Shown: positions 4,844-10,006 of the stretch, in pieces
How positions within the stretch are numbered: position 1 is the stretch's first letter
Layout: each line of letters opens with the position of its first letter
NCBI GenBank assembly: GCA_025934025.1
Contig: JAICYU010000004.1
Span: 1-41,165, forward strand
Length of the DNA stretch: 41,165 bases
DNA from: Terriglobales bacterium
GTDB lineage: Bacteria; Acidobacteriota; Terriglobia; Terriglobales; Acidobacteriaceae
Reading direction: 5' to 3'
Notes under the pieces: model-generated
Databases searched by the model: none
What the model was told of the DNA's origin: nothing
What the model saw: the letters and a program-made list of their open reading frames with translations, nothing else
Position numbers and translations under genes: made by a program

Positions 4844-4863
4844 CGCCCGCCTTTCGGCGGGCG
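4844..4863 (-). terminator. Terminator of nrdJ
   Basis: An 8-bp perfect stem (CGCCCGCC with GGCGGGCG) with a GAAA tetraloop on the reverse strand begins 20 bases after the nrdJ stop. A pyrimidine-rich stretch (CTTTCATTTC) follows on the reverse strand rather than a pure T run. Confidence 0.8.
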
Positions 4864-4883: not shown

Positions 4884-7800
4884 TTAACTGCACCCGCTTG
4901 TGCTCCCACAACTCATACACCTGTAACAGCTTCCATTCCTCGTCATGATGGCGCCGCAGAGGTGGCACGAAGGGGCGTCGCCGAGATCAACGATCTCGCG
5001 GAGAGCATCAGCAGAGTGGTACAAGCCTCGGTCAGTCGGAGACGGTACTTGGTAGTTGGTAGTTGGTACTTGACTCTTAGCTCTTGGCTCCTGGCTGGAA
5101 GCAACACCGCCCTGGGGCGGCATTGTTCCACCGAACTCCGCTTCATTCACTTGTGTGCCTTCGCTGAGTACTGACTGCTGACTGCTGACTGCGGCCGCAG
5201 GCTGGAGAGCCCGTTCGACTCCGCTCAGGGCAGGGCTCTGCGTTCCAGCGGCCTGAGCGTTCAGCTGCGGGAACAGCGGGAACTGCTGTCCTGACACGAA
5301 CCGGATCTCCAACCAGCGGAAGATGTAGTCCATTACCGACTTGGCGATGGGGATTTCCTGGTTGCCGGTGAAGCCCGAAGGCTCAAAGCGGGTGTGGGAG
5401 AACTTGTCGCACAGCAGCTTCAGCGGAACGCCGTGCTGAAGAGCCAGCGAGACGGCCGTGGCAAACGAGTCCATCAGGCCGGACACGGTCGAGCCTTCCT
5501 TGGCCATGCGGATGAAGAGCTCGCCCGGGGTGCCATCCTTATACATGCCGACGGTGATGTAGCCTTCATGGCCGGCGATGGAGAACTTGTGCGTAATGGA
5601 GTGCCGCTCGCCGGGCAGGCGATGGCGCAGCGCACGCGGCGGAGCCGTCTCCTGCTCTTCGCGCGTGACGCCCACCAGCCGGCGCACGGAGTCATAGACC
5701 TGGCCTTGGATTTCCTTGGCTGCACCGTTCGCCAACCGGACGACTTCCAGAGCGAAGGCCTGCTGCTCCGGCGAGAGCCGCGTAAACGCCGACTCTTCGT
5801 TCGACACCGGTGCTGCGACCACGCCTGCGGCAGTTTTCTCCTGACGCGTCCCACGCTTCGCGGCTTCTTCTTTCTTCGCCGCGGCCATCAGCGGCTGCGC
5901 CTTCTTCGATCCGTCGCGATAGATGGCAACAGCCTTCAGACCGAGCTTCCATGACTGGACGTACGCGTCAGCAATATCTTCCACCGTCGCATTCTCGGGC
6001 AGGTTCACCGTTTTCGAGATAGCGCCGGAGATGAAGGGCTGCGTGGCGGCCATCATCTTCACGTGGCCCATGTAGGCGATGCTGCGCGTGCCTTTCTGCG
6101 GCTTGAAGCTGCAATCGAAAACAGGATAGTGCTCGTCCTTGATGCCGGGCGCGCCTTCAATGGTTCCGGTGGCGTCAATGTAGCTGACAATGCCGTTCAC
6201 CTGGTCCGGCGAGTAGCCCAGCTTCCACAGCGCCAGCGGCACGGTGTTGTTCACGATTTTGATCATGCCGCCGCCCACGAGCTTCTTGTACTTCACCAGC
6301 GCTAGGTCAGGCTCGATCCCGGTGGTGTCGCAATCCATCATGAAGCCGATGGTTCCCGTGGGCGCAAGCACCGTCACCTGCGAGTTGCGATAGCCAGACT
6401 TCTCGCCCAGCGCGAGCGCCTCGTCCCAGCACTGCTTGGAGCCTTCGAAGAGATTGGCCGGAACATTTTCTTTGGTGATCTTGTTCACCGAAGCCCGGTG
6501 CATGCGGATCACGTCGAGGAACGGCTCGCGATTCACATACCATCCGGGGCAAGCTCCTCCGGTGATTTCCTGCGGAGAGACACGCGAAGTCGCCGGTCCG
6601 AGCGCGGGGCACTGCTCAGCAATGCGCGCCGACTGTAAATACGCTTCGCCGCACATGATGGCCGTAACGCAAGCGGCGTAGTCGCGGCCGGAGTCGGAAT
6701 CGTAAGGCAGGCCGCTGGCCATGAGCAGCGCGCCCAGGTTGGCGTAACCCAGGCCGAGCGGGCGATACTCGTGCGAGTTGCGCGCAATCATCTCCGTGGG
6801 ATAGCCGGCGTTGTCCACCAGGATTTCCTGCGCCGTAATCATCACGTCCACGGCGTAGCGATAGGCGGGCACGTCAAACTCGCCGTTGGCCCTGATGAAC
6901 TTCATCAGGTTGAGCGAAGACAAGTTGCAGGCCGAGTCGTCGAGGAACATGTACTCGCTGCACGGATTGCTGGCGTTGATGCGCGCCGTGTTCTTCGACG
7001 TGTGCCAGCGGTTCACGGTGGTGTCATACTGCATGCCGGGATCGCCGCATTGCCACGTAGCTTCCGCGATCTTGCGCAGCAGCTCGCGCGCCTTGTGCGG
7101 TTTCATCGGATGACTGTCTTTCACCGATTTGGTGAAGAAGGTCTCATCGCGCTCGGCCGCCTGCATGAACTCGTCGGTCACGCGGACCGAGTTGTTGGCG
7201 TTCTGGAAAAAGATGGAGCTGTAGGCTTCCGAATCCGGACCGGAGCCGTCATACCCGGCTTCCACCAGCGCCCAGGCCTTGGCTTCCTCTTTGGCCTTGC
7301 ACTCGATGAAGTCCACGATGTCTGGATGGTCAACGTTCAAGATGACCATCTTGGCGGCGCGGCGCGTCTTGCCGCCGGATTTGATCACGCCGGCAAAAGC
7401 GTCAAAGCCCTTCATAAAGCTCAACGGACCGCTGGCCGACCCGCCGCCGCTCAGCTCTTCCGTGGAGCCGCGCAGCGGAGAAAGATTGGTGCCGGTGCCG
7501 CTGCCCCACTTGAACAGCATGCCTTCGGTTTTGGCCAGCGTGAGGATGGAGTCGAGCGAATCCTTCACCGAGTTGATGAAGCAGGCGGAGCACTGCGGGT
7601 TCTTGTAGCCGGTGGTGGAAAACTCGACGCTTCCCTTCTCGGAAACCCAGTGCCAGTTCTGCGCGTCAGAGAGCGGCTCCAGGCGGTCGCAACCCACGTT
7701 GAACCATACGGGCGAGTTGAAGCTTGCCTTCTGCTGCAGCAGGATGTGCACCAGCTCGTCATGGAAGGTGTCGCGGTCTTCGGCAGTGGCGAAGTAGCCC

Positions 7801-8153
7801 TGGGCCCAGCCCCAGTCGCGGATTGTCTCTGCCACGCGCTCTATCAGCACGCGCACGCCGCTCTCGCGTTGCGGCGTCCCCATCTGCCCGTGCAGATATT
7901 TGCTGGCCACAATGTTGATGGCGGTCATCGTCCAGTCCTTGGGCGACTCCACATCTTTCTGCTCGAAGATGGTGTTGCCCTTGGCGTCAGTAATCAGCGC
8001 GGTTCGACGCTCCCACTCGACTTCGTTGTAAGGCGAGATGCCCGCGCGAGTGAAGTAGCGCGGGAACTTGAGTCCGGGCGCGGTCTTCGTCGCCGGCTGA
8101 AGAGTGGTCCGTGTGGTCTGGGTGGTGGTTGCTTTTGTTGTCGTATCCGCCAT
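4884..8153 (-). CDS. nrdJ: Adenosylcobalamin-dependent (class II) ribonucleoside-diphosphate reductase
   Basis: Reduces ribonucleotides to deoxyribonucleotides with coenzyme B12 as radical source (1089 aa). ATG 8153 is chosen because GGAGT lies 8-9 bases upstream; the frame runs further up, but through a palindromic repeat. Visible motifs: FNSPVWFNVG (about 146-154), CSACFINS (C188, C191), the catalytic NPCSE (C398, E400), APTGTIGF, and a C-terminal Cys-rich ribbon (CHLCGA..CYRCMSCGSTSGC) that in this family shuttles reducing equivalents. The linker before the ribbon (about 975-1050) is low-complexity and coincides with dispersed-repeat DNA. No class I or III reductase is in the window. It lies downstream of the 8490-8945 gene in the same orientation. 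Confidence 0.97.
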   Translation of the reverse strand: MADTTTKATTTQTTRTTLQPATKTAPGLKFPRYFTRAGISPYNEVEWERRTALITDAKGNTIFEQKDVESPKDWTMTAINIVASKYLHGQMGTPQRESGVRVLIERVAETIRDWGWAQGYFATAEDRDTFHDELVHILLQQKASFNSPVWFNVGCDRLEPLSDAQNWHWVSEKGSVEFSTTGYKNPQCSACFINSVKDSLDSILTLAKTEGMLFKWGSGTGTNLSPLRGSTEELSGGGSASGPLSFMKGFDAFAGVIKSGGKTRRAAKMVILNVDHPDIVDFIECKAKEEAKAWALVEAGYDGSGPDSEAYSSIFFQNANNSVRVTDEFMQAAERDETFFTKSVKDSHPMKPHKARELLRKIAEATWQCGDPGMQYDTTVNRWHTSKNTARINASNPCSEYMFLDDSACNLSSLNLMKFIRANGEFDVPAYRYAVDVMITAQEILVDNAGYPTEMIARNSHEYRPLGLGYANLGALLMASGLPYDSDSGRDYAACVTAIMCGEAYLQSARIAEQCPALGPATSRVSPQEITGGACPGWYVNREPFLDVIRMHRASVNKITKENVPANLFEGSKQCWDEALALGEKSGYRNSQVTVLAPTGTIGFMMDCDTTGIEPDLALVKYKKLVGGGMIKIVNNTVPLALWKLGYSPDQVNGIVSYIDATGTIEGAPGIKDEHYPVFDCSFKPQKGTRSIAYMGHVKMMAATQPFISGAISKTVNLPENATVEDIADAYVQSWKLGLKAVAIYRDGSKKAQPLMAAAKKEEAAKRGTRQEKTAAGVVAAPVSNEESAFTRLSPEQQAFALEVVRLANGAAKEIQGQVYDSVRRLVGVTREEQETAPPRALRHRLPGERHSITHKFSIAGHEGYITVGMYKDGTPGELFIRMAKEGSTVSGLMDSFATAVSLALQHGVPLKLLCDKFSHTRFEPSGFTGNQEIPIAKSVMDYIFRWLEIRFVSGQQFPLFPQLNAQAAGTQSPALSGVERALQPAAAVSSQQSVLSEGTQVNEAEFGGTMPPQGGVASSQEPRAKSQVPTTNYQVPSPTDRGLYHSADALREIVDLGDAPSCHLCGAIMTRNGSCYRCMSCGSTSGCS

Positions 8154-8489
8154 GTTTTCAACTCCGCGATCTTGAATGCGATTCAGCTTCTGTTCGCAGC
8201 GGGAGAGGAATCTGCTGTTCCGGGGAGGGTGGATGGCAGATTCCTCTTCGCTGCCTTGCAATCTGTTTTAAAAGAGCAGGGGCTTAAGCCCACTTTCAAA
8301 AATCTCGAGACTGTTACTTGTTGCAAGCACAAAGAGCCTGCAAGTTATTTTCAGCGAGACGCGGCAGGCCGCATCTCTACGTTCGGCTCATTTCCAGATT
8401 GCCCAGAATCACCAGAGCCAATCAGTCATCATCAGCGGTGACGCTTCAATCGTCACTCTTTGGCAATGTTGGCAATCCTGGCAATGTCG
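8154..8489. other. 336-bp nrdJ leader / intergenic region
   Basis: Separates nrdJ from the upstream gene on the same strand. It contains the inverted repeat at 8196-8254 and, at 8459-8487, three TTGGCAAT/CTGGCAAT units of a type also seen near 24086-24106. No gene, no B12-riboswitch core and no second NrdR-like pair were recognised. Confidence 0.5.
8196..8254 (-). repeat. Imperfect ~20-bp inverted repeat in the nrdJ leader
   Basis: Arms at 8196-8215 (GCAGCGGGAGAGGAATCTGC) and 8236-8254 (GCAGATTCCTCTTCGCTGC) are nearly complementary, around a 20-base loop. It would form a strong RNA hairpin about 43-100 bases ahead of the nrdJ start. GAGGAATCTGC is typical of dispersed acidobacterial intergenic repeats, so it may be an inserted element and not an evolved regulator. 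Confidence 0.6.
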
Positions 8490-8945
8490 TCAAGCTCCTG
8501 CGGCTTTAGCCAGTTCGCGGGCGCGGGTCACGCGATCTACGGCACGCTCGGCTACGGTCTTGATTTCCTCGACTTCGGCCGAGATCGCCACCGGCGACAC
8601 CACCGGTTCAAAAATCTGGGCCGCGGCTTGCTTGCGCGAGTCGAGCCAATGTTTCAGCGCTCCAGCGGCGACGCGACGATCGGCCGTGCTGGGCGCAACT
8701 GCATAGCGGACAAAACACTTTCCTTCCGCCAACTTCTCCCGCCACGGGCTGCCCACGGCAAACATGCGGCTCAAAGCCAACGCCAAATCTTCGGCTTCGC
8801 TGACCTCAAAAACGGCCAGCATGCGGCGTCCGTTCGGCCCGGTCATGATCTCTTCCGCCAGGGCAAAAATGCCCGGCTGCTTCGGTACCAGCAGGAGCCC
8901 GAAACTGGACTCGCAACGGAACCAACGTGACCAACTCATCTCCAT
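8490..8945 (-). CDS. Conserved-looking protein of unknown function upstream of nrdJ (151 aa)
   Basis: The ATG at 8945 has GGGAG 7 bases upstream. The protein is soluble, with no signal or membrane segment. Parts: an N-terminal beta-rich stretch (FGLLLVPKQPGIFALAEEI), a central GRRMLAVFEVSEAEDLALALSRMF, then PWREKLAEGKCFVRYAVA, DRRVAAGALKHWL and an amphipathic helical C-terminus. The order (small-protein core, 'PWREKL..G.CFVRY', 'ALKHWL') faintly recalls GIY-YIG-like folds, but the catalytic pattern is not clear, so no function is assigned. A promoter with NrdR-like boxes lies 167 bases upstream and nrdJ lies downstream on the same strand, suggesting co-regulation. Confidence 0.75.
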   Translation of the reverse strand: MEMSWSRWFRCESSFGLLLVPKQPGIFALAEEIMTGPNGRRMLAVFEVSEAEDLALALSRMFAVGSPWREKLAEGKCFVRYAVAPSTADRRVAAGALKHWLDSRKQAAAQIFEPVVSPVAISAEVEEIKTVAERAVDRVTRARELAKAAGA

Positions 8946-9111
8946 ACGCTACTCCCGGATTGTCTGGCCCCCGCCGGACGGCCATCCGGCGGGAACCTGT
9001 TGAGACTTGCAAAAGATCACCGCGATCAACGTTTGCCGGCGTCACCTCTGGCGCCGGTTTTTCTGCTAGTTTCGGGCCGCTTAGGGCTCTTGAATACTGC
9101 GGGTGTTGGAC
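8946..9111 (-). promoter_or_regulatory. Structured 5' leader of the 8945-nrdJ transcript
   Basis: On the reverse strand the leader carries a 9-bp perfect hairpin (arms 8970-8978 and 8985-8993) just upstream of the ribosome-binding site, and a second GC-rich hairpin at about 9036-9058 (CCGGCG paired with CGCCGG). It could affect translation. No B12-box consensus was recognised, so a cobalamin riboswitch is not claimed. Confidence 0.35.
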
Positions 9112-9163
9112 AAGTTACGCCTCTATATGGTGCCTGTCAAGCAGTAAACACCATATATTGTAC
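9112..9163 (-). promoter_or_regulatory. Sigma70-like promoter overlapped by a tandem NrdR-box-like pair
   Basis: On the reverse strand a perfect -35 TTGACA (9135-9140) is 17 bases from a weak -10 TAACTT (9112-9117). Two sites resemble the NrdR box (acaCwAtATaTwGtgt): one at 9148-9163 just upstream of the -35 (13 of 16 on the reverse strand, GTACAATATATGGTGT) and one at 9118-9133 inside the -35/-10 spacer (10 of 16, GCACCATATAGAGGCG). Centres are 30 bp apart, close to the 31-32 bp usual for NrdR pairs. NrdR represses ribonucleotide reductase genes when dATP is high. The promoter points to the 8945 gene and nrdJ. Confidence 0.65.
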
Positions 9164-9596
9164 TATTTTATCAGATGCTCTGTCATGACCATAAGTTTCG
9201 GAGCTTCAGGCAGTTAGCAGCTTTCAAGGGGTGTTTCAGGCGATTTCTGCCTAGGTTTCCACAGCGTTACGTAAGGACTAAGCCCCGGCTAAGGGCGCTC
9301 AGTGCGGAAATGTTACTGGTTTTGGCTGGTTGGATGCTGCTCGATCAAACTTCGGAAGCGGCGGCAACCGGTGAGTGCATTCGACTGTACGCGCTGACCT
9401 AAGTACGGTCAATGCCGGATTGTGGTGCAGAGACTGTGGAGAGGTGTGGATTCGGTGGGAAAAGTGAAGCGAAGGGTTCAGTCAACAGTCTTAATCTGCC
9501 CAGATAAGCCAGCAGCAGTAACCACTACAGAGGCCTCAGCATCTATTGAATAGGAGAGCATTTATCTCGCAATCATCATCTCTAAGGGTCTCATTC
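9164..9596. other. Intergenic region, nothing recognised
   Basis: Short open frames here lack ribosome-binding sites and family features. No RNA gene or long repeat was seen. Confidence 0.4.
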
Positions 9597-9797
9597 ATGC
9601 AAAAGAACTCTGCTGACCTGCGTCAGCGAATCTCTCGTCTTGATAAGTACGTAACTATCGTTGCATTTCTGTGGCTGGCCATGTCGCTGGTTCTGTTTCT
9701 GCTGGCCGCTCCTTCAAGTTTGCACGCTGCCCAGCACGGCATCTCGCCATCGCAGCAGGCGGCAGTAACTCACGCCGCTCGCGCCTTGCGAATGTAA
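9597..9797 (+). CDS. Possible small single-pass membrane protein (66 aa)
   Basis: From ATG 9597, with AAGGG at 9584-9588 as Shine-Dalgarno. The N-terminal ~20 residues are charged, followed by one membrane segment (IVAFLWLAMSLVLFLLAA, about 22-39) and a short Gln/Ala-rich tail. Its last 28 bases overlap the end of the convergent zinc-protein gene. No family recognised; upstream in-frame ATG codons exist but lack a binding site. Confidence 0.45.
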   Translation: MQKNSADLRQRISRLDKYVTIVAFLWLAMSLVLFLLAAPSSLHAAQHGISPSQQAAVTHAARALRM

Positions 9798-10006
9798 TCG
9801 TCCTTGCACTTCTCGGAACACAGGTGGATCGCGCCCAACTCAAGCACCCGGCTGTCGTCCCAGCGGTCGAGGAAGCGCAGCGAGCGCTGAAGCGAGTTGG
9901 CTTTCTCCATCTCGATGTCATAGCCGAGAATCCAGGCGTCGTTTCCCAGCCGCTTTCCCGGGTCAGGCCTCTTTTTGTCGCAAACATCGCAGGTGATCTC
10001 AACCAT
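9770..10006 (-). CDS. Small four-cysteine (zinc-binding-like) protein, 78 aa
   Basis: CxxC near the start (CDVC, residues 6-9) and CxxxC near the end (CSEKC, 63-67) would form one zinc site; between them is a region rich in Leu, Arg and Trp. The ATG at 10006 is preceded by a strong GGAGGA. No signal or membrane segment. It is downstream of inorganic pyrophosphatase on the same strand, with 60 bases between them, so may share its transcript. Function unknown. Confidence 0.7.
   Translation of the reverse strand: MVEITCDVCDKKRPDPGKRLGNDAWILGYDIEMEKANSLQRSLRFLDRWDDSRVLELGAIHLCSEKCKDDYIRKARAA

Follow-up and report, generated by a model that had tools for sequence, protein, structure and literature searches.

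The nrdJ gene of a Terriglobales bacterium is preceded by two sites resembling NrdR boxes, and this raises the question of whether NrdR controls the class II ribonucleotide reductase (RNR) encoded behind them. We analyzed the whole 41,165-nucleotide stretch of DNA (hereafter, the window), the draft genome to which it belongs, and related genomes. The data argue for an NrdR operator of the nrdJ operon, at which a dATP/ATP-loaded NrdR tetramer would bind both boxes and block the promoter. We put the probability of this reading at about 0.93 and consider repression of this class II operon by NrdR very likely.

Operator and promoter architecture

The operator and promoter comprise the following elements.

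9148–9163, minus strand: NrdR box 1, GTACAATATATGGTGT, upstream of the −35 hexamer; 13/16 consensus matches, with C4 and G13 present
9135–9140, minus strand: −35 hexamer TTGACA, within the 14-bp spacer separating the boxes and at the same place in relatives
9118–9133, minus strand: NrdR box 2, GCACCATATAGAGGCG, occupying the promoter spacer; 10/16 consensus matches, with C4 and G13 present
9112–9117, minus strand: −10-like hexamer TAACTT, directly abutting box 2

From 9163 to 9112, the minus strand reads GTACAATATATGGTGT TTACTGC TTGACA G GCACCATATAGAGGCG TAACTT, namely box 1, 7 nt, TTGACA, 1 nt, box 2, and TAACTT, with a −35/−10 spacer of 17 nt. The centers of the boxes (9155.5 and 9125.5) are 30 bp apart, i.e., separated by a 14-bp spacer, and the 3′ (downstream) half of box 2 is degenerate and not palindromic. 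Sites were scored against ACACWATATATWGTGT, which we take to be the 16-base NrdR consensus. Rescoring reproduced the two boxes, their scores of 13/16 and 10/16, and the 30-bp center distance reported in the preliminary description, and its perfect TTGACA, weak −10, and 17-base spacer were likewise borne out in the sequence. PMC9110341 gives the GC pairs 9/18 and 40/49 as conserved, and the register of ACACWATATATWGTGT is consistent with them.

Box 1 was the top-scoring consensus site of the whole window, and among window pairs 28–35 bp apart, a summed score of 22 was reached solely by registers of this place. A search of the draft genome (97% complete) for the symmetric pair CWATATATWG-N20-CWATATATWG at ≤3 mismatches returned one place, the nrdJ operator, which itself lies at the 3-mismatch limit. 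The promoter was absent from the list of an automatic promoter scan, which was stricter, because TAACTT fits TATAAT at only three of six positions.

NrdR and RNR complement of the genome

The preliminary description had made its proposal dependent on an nrdR gene, and one was found on a different contig from nrdJ (TIGR00244, E = 5.7e-59), the single NrdR of the genome. The encoded protein has a Zn-ribbon (C3/C6/C31/C34 as Zn ligands) and the DNA-contact residues D15, R17, R26–29, and R37, with Lys at position 12 in place of the R12 (sixth backbone arginine) described in PMC9110341; the same paper ties these residues to DNA binding. Matches to TIGR00244 (E ≤ 0.001) were present in 55 of the 61 genomes of the relatives set, including the window's own, and 53 of them exceeded the curated cut-off.

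NrdJ is the single RNR large subunit of the PF02867 kind in the draft genome, in which no match to NrdB was found. Assignment of NrdJ to class II RNRs is based on the class II N-terminal domain (PF08471, E = 6.7e-18) and the barrel (PF02867, E = 1.8e-135). Since NrdR carries the sole ATP-cone detected in this genome, this reductase may, by inference, receive dATP feedback through transcription alone.

Conservation of the box geometry

The relatives set of 61 genomes supplied 58 nrdJ upstream regions, including two that belong to second nrdJ copies, and 78 of 80 named loci supplied one each (L073 and L141 start inside nrdJ and were left out of the upstream counts); as 12 named regions were duplicates, 124 regions remained in all. 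We searched these for 60 allowed arrangements, with C4, G13, TTGAC, and minimum scores as selection rules. One of the 60 geometries was present in 107 of the 124 regions; as controls, dinucleotide shuffles gave 12 positives in 2,480 and reverse complements gave 4 in 124. Identical geometry (box 1, 7 nt, TTGAC(A), 1 nt, box 2) was found in 34 of 36 regions of the window's family. The two misses were the second nrdJ of G025 (60% identical) and G036, in which box 2 fell under the score limit and whose operator is still found by the 51-base pattern search described below. The remaining named regions were positive in 61 of 66 cases, 53 of them with the window's geometry, and the arrangement was missing in five. 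In the neighboring family, 8 of 14 regions were positive, with spacers of 15 or 16 bp, and six were without the arrangement; in other families of the class, four of eight regions were positive and four were without it. Two of the named loci, L143 and L122, are titled Bordetella parapertussis and Verrucomicrobia, respectively; their nrdJ genes are 58% and 61% identical to that of the window, and they are possibly mislabeled bins.

Of the 398 family genomes, 274 contained a 51-base pattern of the operator when ≤2 mismatches were allowed and 295 when ≤3 were allowed; the pattern was drawn partly from the same genomes, and its location at nrdJ was checked among the matches listed. A reversed control pattern matched none of the 398. 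The other 103 genomes lacked the pattern even at 3 mismatches, owing to draft gaps, other geometries, or true absence. No exact match to the operator pattern was found in viral contigs. The counts for the geometry and for the 51-base pattern are consistency counts and not independent proof. With spacing and orientation kept in 34 of 36 family regions and the pattern in 274 of 398 genomes, the pair proved to be conserved in relatives, as the preliminary description had proposed to check.

Across 59 non-redundant sequences, the information content per column was 1.20 bits in box 1 and 0.92 bits in box 2, versus 0.05–0.09 bits in the flanks. The conservation of the C4, G13, and TTGAC columns is partly built in, because these were selection rules, and the same holds in part for TTGACA as the most conserved element. 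In the −10 hexamer, T, A, and the final T were each present in 56 of the 59 sequences. Two positions of box 1 that the search did not singly require were nearly invariant (A6 in 59 of 59 sequences and T11 in 58 of 59).

These data bear on two other explanations of the operator. In the window, 9 bases of one box recur in inverted orientation in the other, 16 bases away, and this inverted repeat, TATATGGTG...CACCATATA, could be the operator of another dimeric regulator, with NrdR as a bystander; DNA alone cannot name a regulator. However, by eye, many relatives keep the geometry while the inverted repeat between the boxes is lost, nrdR is present in the genome, and both boxes fit an NrdR site at contacts C4 and G13, so that we regard another regulator as very improbable. 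Still more improbable is a second alternative, in which conservation concerns the sigma-70 promoter alone and the AT-rich boxes come as its by-product. In its favor, TTGACA is the most conserved element and box 2 lies inside the promoter. Against it, box 2 holds 0.92 bits per column within the promoter spacer, and box 1, upstream of the −35 where a plain promoter could vary, holds 1.20 bits versus 0.09 in the preceding 60 bases; the search imposed C4, G13, and a minimum score on the boxes, but neither A6 nor T11 singly.

Comparison with characterized NrdR operators

In published work (PMC9110341; PMC12051234), NrdR carrying dATP and ATP occupies a pair of boxes spaced by about three helix turns and restricts RNA polymerase. 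As classified in PMC12051234, spacers of 14–17 bp form the short class, and those of 24–27 bp also correspond to whole helix turns. Table 5 of that paper gives, for a 14-bp spacer, 2 nM for Listeria NrdR (best 1), 169 nM for E. coli NrdR (best short 45), 154 nM for S. coelicolor NrdR (best 21), and 699 nM for S. pneumoniae NrdR (best 41); for three of the four characterized NrdRs, 14 bp was thus approximately 4- to 17-fold worse than the best short spacer. These values place a 14-bp spacer inside the known class, yet not at its usual optimum. The geometry regarded in the preliminary description as what a repressor pair needs therefore holds with respect to the 14–17 bp class, but its spacer is one base under the usual 15–16 bp.

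The operator resembles that of Streptomyces coelicolor nrdRJ as described in PMC9110341, which likewise serves a class II nrdJ, has two 16-bp palindromic boxes, and overlaps an RNA polymerase site; the GC pairs at box positions 4 and 13 are conserved in both. The distance between the boxes is 31 bp in S. coelicolor (a 15-bp spacer, derived from the positions quoted there) and 30 bp (14) in the window, and nrdR is part of the operon in S. coelicolor, whereas here it lies on another contig and a GIY-YIG-like ORF comes first. In common with the Listeria, Streptococcus, and E. coli operators of PMC12051234, the box pair lies on an RNR promoter with whole helix turns between the centers. Unlike in those operators, box 2 in the window's family is fitted between the −35 and the −10, and the spacer is 14 bp in 34 of 34 sites, whereas the native spacers of the other three are 15–16 or 25–26 bp. 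The locus in the window has two palindromic boxes of approximately 16 bp with C4 and G13 (box 2 at 10/16), a spacer of whole helix turns that at 14 bp is at the short edge of the 14–17 class, an overlap, judged by promoter motif, with the RNA polymerase site upstream of an RNR operon, and a position, spacing, and orientation kept in relatives.

In the mechanism that we propose, an NrdR tetramer with dATP and ATP would bind box 1 and box 2, about three helix turns apart. With box 1 just upstream of the −35 and box 2 in the −35/−10 spacer, the bound repressor would cover the promoter and thereby keep RNA polymerase out. A drop in dATP would release NrdR, and the transcript (the 151-aa ORF, then nrdJ) would be made. 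We infer binding, the nucleotide switch, and repression from work on Streptomyces, E. coli, Listeria, and Streptococcus; the control of a class II reductase by NrdR suggested in the preliminary description is supported by the presence of nrdR and the conserved box pair. Because box 2 fits between the −35 and the −10, the NrdR spacer and the promoter length are coupled; a −35/−10 spacing of 17 goes with an NrdR spacer of 14 in the window's family, and 18 goes with 15 in four of eight neighboring-family sites. The operator represents a known kind of control and expected biology, found family-wide.

Genes of the transcript

The predicted transcript comprises the following features.

9035–9058, minus strand: 5′ leader hairpin, seen by eye in 8/9 same-genus leaders
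8490–8945, minus strand: conserved 151-aa ORF at the head of the transcript, without a Pfam match and with a predicted model resembling the UvrC GIY-YIG domain
4884–8153, minus strand: nrdJ, class II RNR with barrel, class II N-terminal, and TSCPD domains
4844–4863, minus strand: terminator-like hairpin behind nrdJ

The promoter had been described as pointing toward nrdJ, and it does lie upstream on the same strand; the first gene is, however, the 151-aa ORF, and the start of nrdJ is 965 nt from box 2. In the stretch separating the ORF from nrdJ, we found nothing resembling a terminator or a promoter. The ORF was present in 20 of the 61 genomes of the relatives set, the window's own included. 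In the 33 same-family genomes in which the geometry search found the operator, its distance to nrdJ was 740–1850 nt with the ORF (18 genomes) and 219–610 nt without it (15 genomes). G036, outside these 33, is an exception, with approximately 734 nt although the ORF was not found.

The predicted model of the ORF (mean pLDDT 81, 19 sequences) resembles most closely the GIY-YIG domain of UvrC. The nine best Foldseek matches were all UvrC GIY-YIG domains (E from 3.4e-3 to 2.9e-2; TM 0.64–0.69 by target and 0.42–0.43 by query), with none at E ≤ 0.001.

In eight of the nine same-genus leaders, the hairpin carries an AGAGGTG loop and has a TCGCGGTGA-like block behind it. Two-sided change was seen in just one of its seven pairs (G001, poorly aligned, was left out). 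The sole match in an Rfam scan of positions 8000–9800 was sul1 (E = 0.36), under its cut-off, so that no known riboswitch was found in the leader. In the nrdJ promoters, the region 1–14 nt past the −10 showed 0.37 bits per column, versus 0.05–0.09 in the flanks, and the initially transcribed region had ATCCCA or ACTG-like starts.

Copies of the nrdJ promoter and defense genes in relatives

Second copies of the promoter were seen in four genomes (G002, G031, G061, and G062). They matched the nrdJ promoter of their own genome at 48, 47, 44, and 41 of 51 bases, respectively, versus 28–39 of 51 for the nrdJ promoters of the other three genomes, and therefore look like copies made within the lineage. 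Two further second matches to the 51-base pattern were of another kind: that in G022 lies at a second nrdJ fragment, and that in G292 (contig C91, 2 mismatches) was set aside as chance, its box core missing by eye.

In G002, which belongs to the same genus as the window, a 76-bp near-copy of the genome's own nrdJ promoter (72 bases identical, both boxes included) lies upstream of a CBASS operon on a different contig from the known nrdJ pieces (L239:3462–6152; G002:C361). PADLOC models match a cyclase (PDLC00815, E = 1.9e-98), an E2 (PDLC00876, E = 4e-41), and a patatin/phospholipase effector (PDLC00758, E = 1.2e-97), with cyclase and effector in one operon. The gene content is like that of the CBASS operons in the PADLOC models, and the promoter differs in being a near-copy of the NrdR-type nrdJ promoter. 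The copies in G061 (L248) and G062 (L237 and L249) precede small ORFs with HNH-like PF01844 matches (E = 0.0023, below the cut-off, and 1.2e-5, above it) and no PADLOC model, and the G031 copy has no clear gene behind it; just one of the four copies is thus at a recognized defense operon.

With the G002 cyclase as query, 19 matches at E ≤ 1e-10 were obtained in 16 of the 398 family genomes. Within the fetched flanks, nrdJ was present at four of these 19 loci (G262, G292, G302, and G346) and the operator at one (G002). All four have the cyclase gene behind nrdJ in the same orientation; the operator was seen upstream in three, and in G302 it falls outside the contig. Neither nrdJ nor the operator occurred in the fetched flanks of 11 of the 16 genomes (1.5 kb for eight, more for G144, G283, and G355). 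Among the named loci, L107 and L109 have the cyclase gene directly 3′ of nrdJ, and L115 is the G262 locus. In all, six species besides G002 have a CBASS-type cyclase gene immediately 3′ of nrdJ and in the same orientation (L270, L271, L273, L274, L107, and L109), an arrangement that differs from the CBASS operons of the PADLOC models; E2-like ORFs were recognized by eye behind the cyclase in G262, G292, G346, L107, and G302. No defense gene was recognized by eye downstream of the window's own nrdJ.

In 48 loci, 77 co-directional ORFs located up to 3 kb 3′ of nrdJ matched 163 PADLOC models, whereas 100 ORFs taken from either strand on the upstream side of the operator at these loci matched five. 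This tally (142.7 kb downstream, with ORFs of at least 110 aa, versus 107.7 kb upstream) counts models rather than genes, with heavy overlap among the cyclase models; length was the sole criterion for calling an ORF, and 45 opposite-strand downstream ORFs were left out. Scanned singly, 9 of 30 downstream ORFs, in eight loci, had a match at E ≤ 1e-8, which is not a rate because the list was hand-picked, consisting mostly of the nearest ORF and including five second genes. Also matched 3′ of nrdJ were retron reverse transcriptase, PDC-M34, AriA/Old-like ATPase, and methyltransferase models. At two loci (L076:6469–6939 and L085:7191–8576), MazG-like and HD-domain genes, possible nucleotide hydrolases, were observed 3′ of nrdJ.

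The tie of the nrdJ promoter, or of nrdJ itself, to anti-phage genes in some relatives was unexpected, and two explanations deserve consideration. The one that we consider probable is an insertion hotspot at the 3′ end of nrdJ, with no role of NrdR in defense. Among 106 loci, representing 91 distinct nrdJ ends, three (G346, L118, and L088) carry direct repeats of the last 73–89 bp of nrdJ downstream of the gene, which point to insertion at this end; in G346, the 73-bp copy (71 bases identical) lies right behind the CBASS genes (L274:7814–7886). The nrdJ–cyclase gaps of L107 and L109 contain terminator-like hairpins, and that of G292 contains a weak one. Against a hotspot, the gaps in G262, G302, and G346 hold no terminator-like element, and none of the six nrdJ–cyclase gaps holds a sigma-70-like promoter; moreover, the G002 CBASS operon lies on another contig with its promoter near-copy and both boxes, the one case that a hotspot leaves unexplained.

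The other explanation, which we advance tentatively and hold to be rather doubtful, is that the NrdR-controlled nrdJ promoter has been recruited for anti-phage systems, with CBASS placed 3′ in the operon or behind the 76-bp promoter copy. Its expression would then follow the dATP/ATP balance and rise when dNTPs are short. NrdR-linked expression of defense genes is possible, and the insertion hotspot is the safer reading. Nucleotide-sensing defense exists, as described in PMC12265719, where it operates via a dTTP-sensing enzyme and not NrdR. Our search found no literature on NrdR together with CBASS, mentions inside full texts being possible, and the link of the nrdJ promoter to defense operons appears new to us.

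Implications

The operator extends a known kind of control to a large soil family. Given its 14-bp spacers, the window's family provides a natural set for testing the published spacing rules. If recruitment of the nrdJ promoter for defense is true, RNR regulation and phage defense would share one nucleotide sensor.
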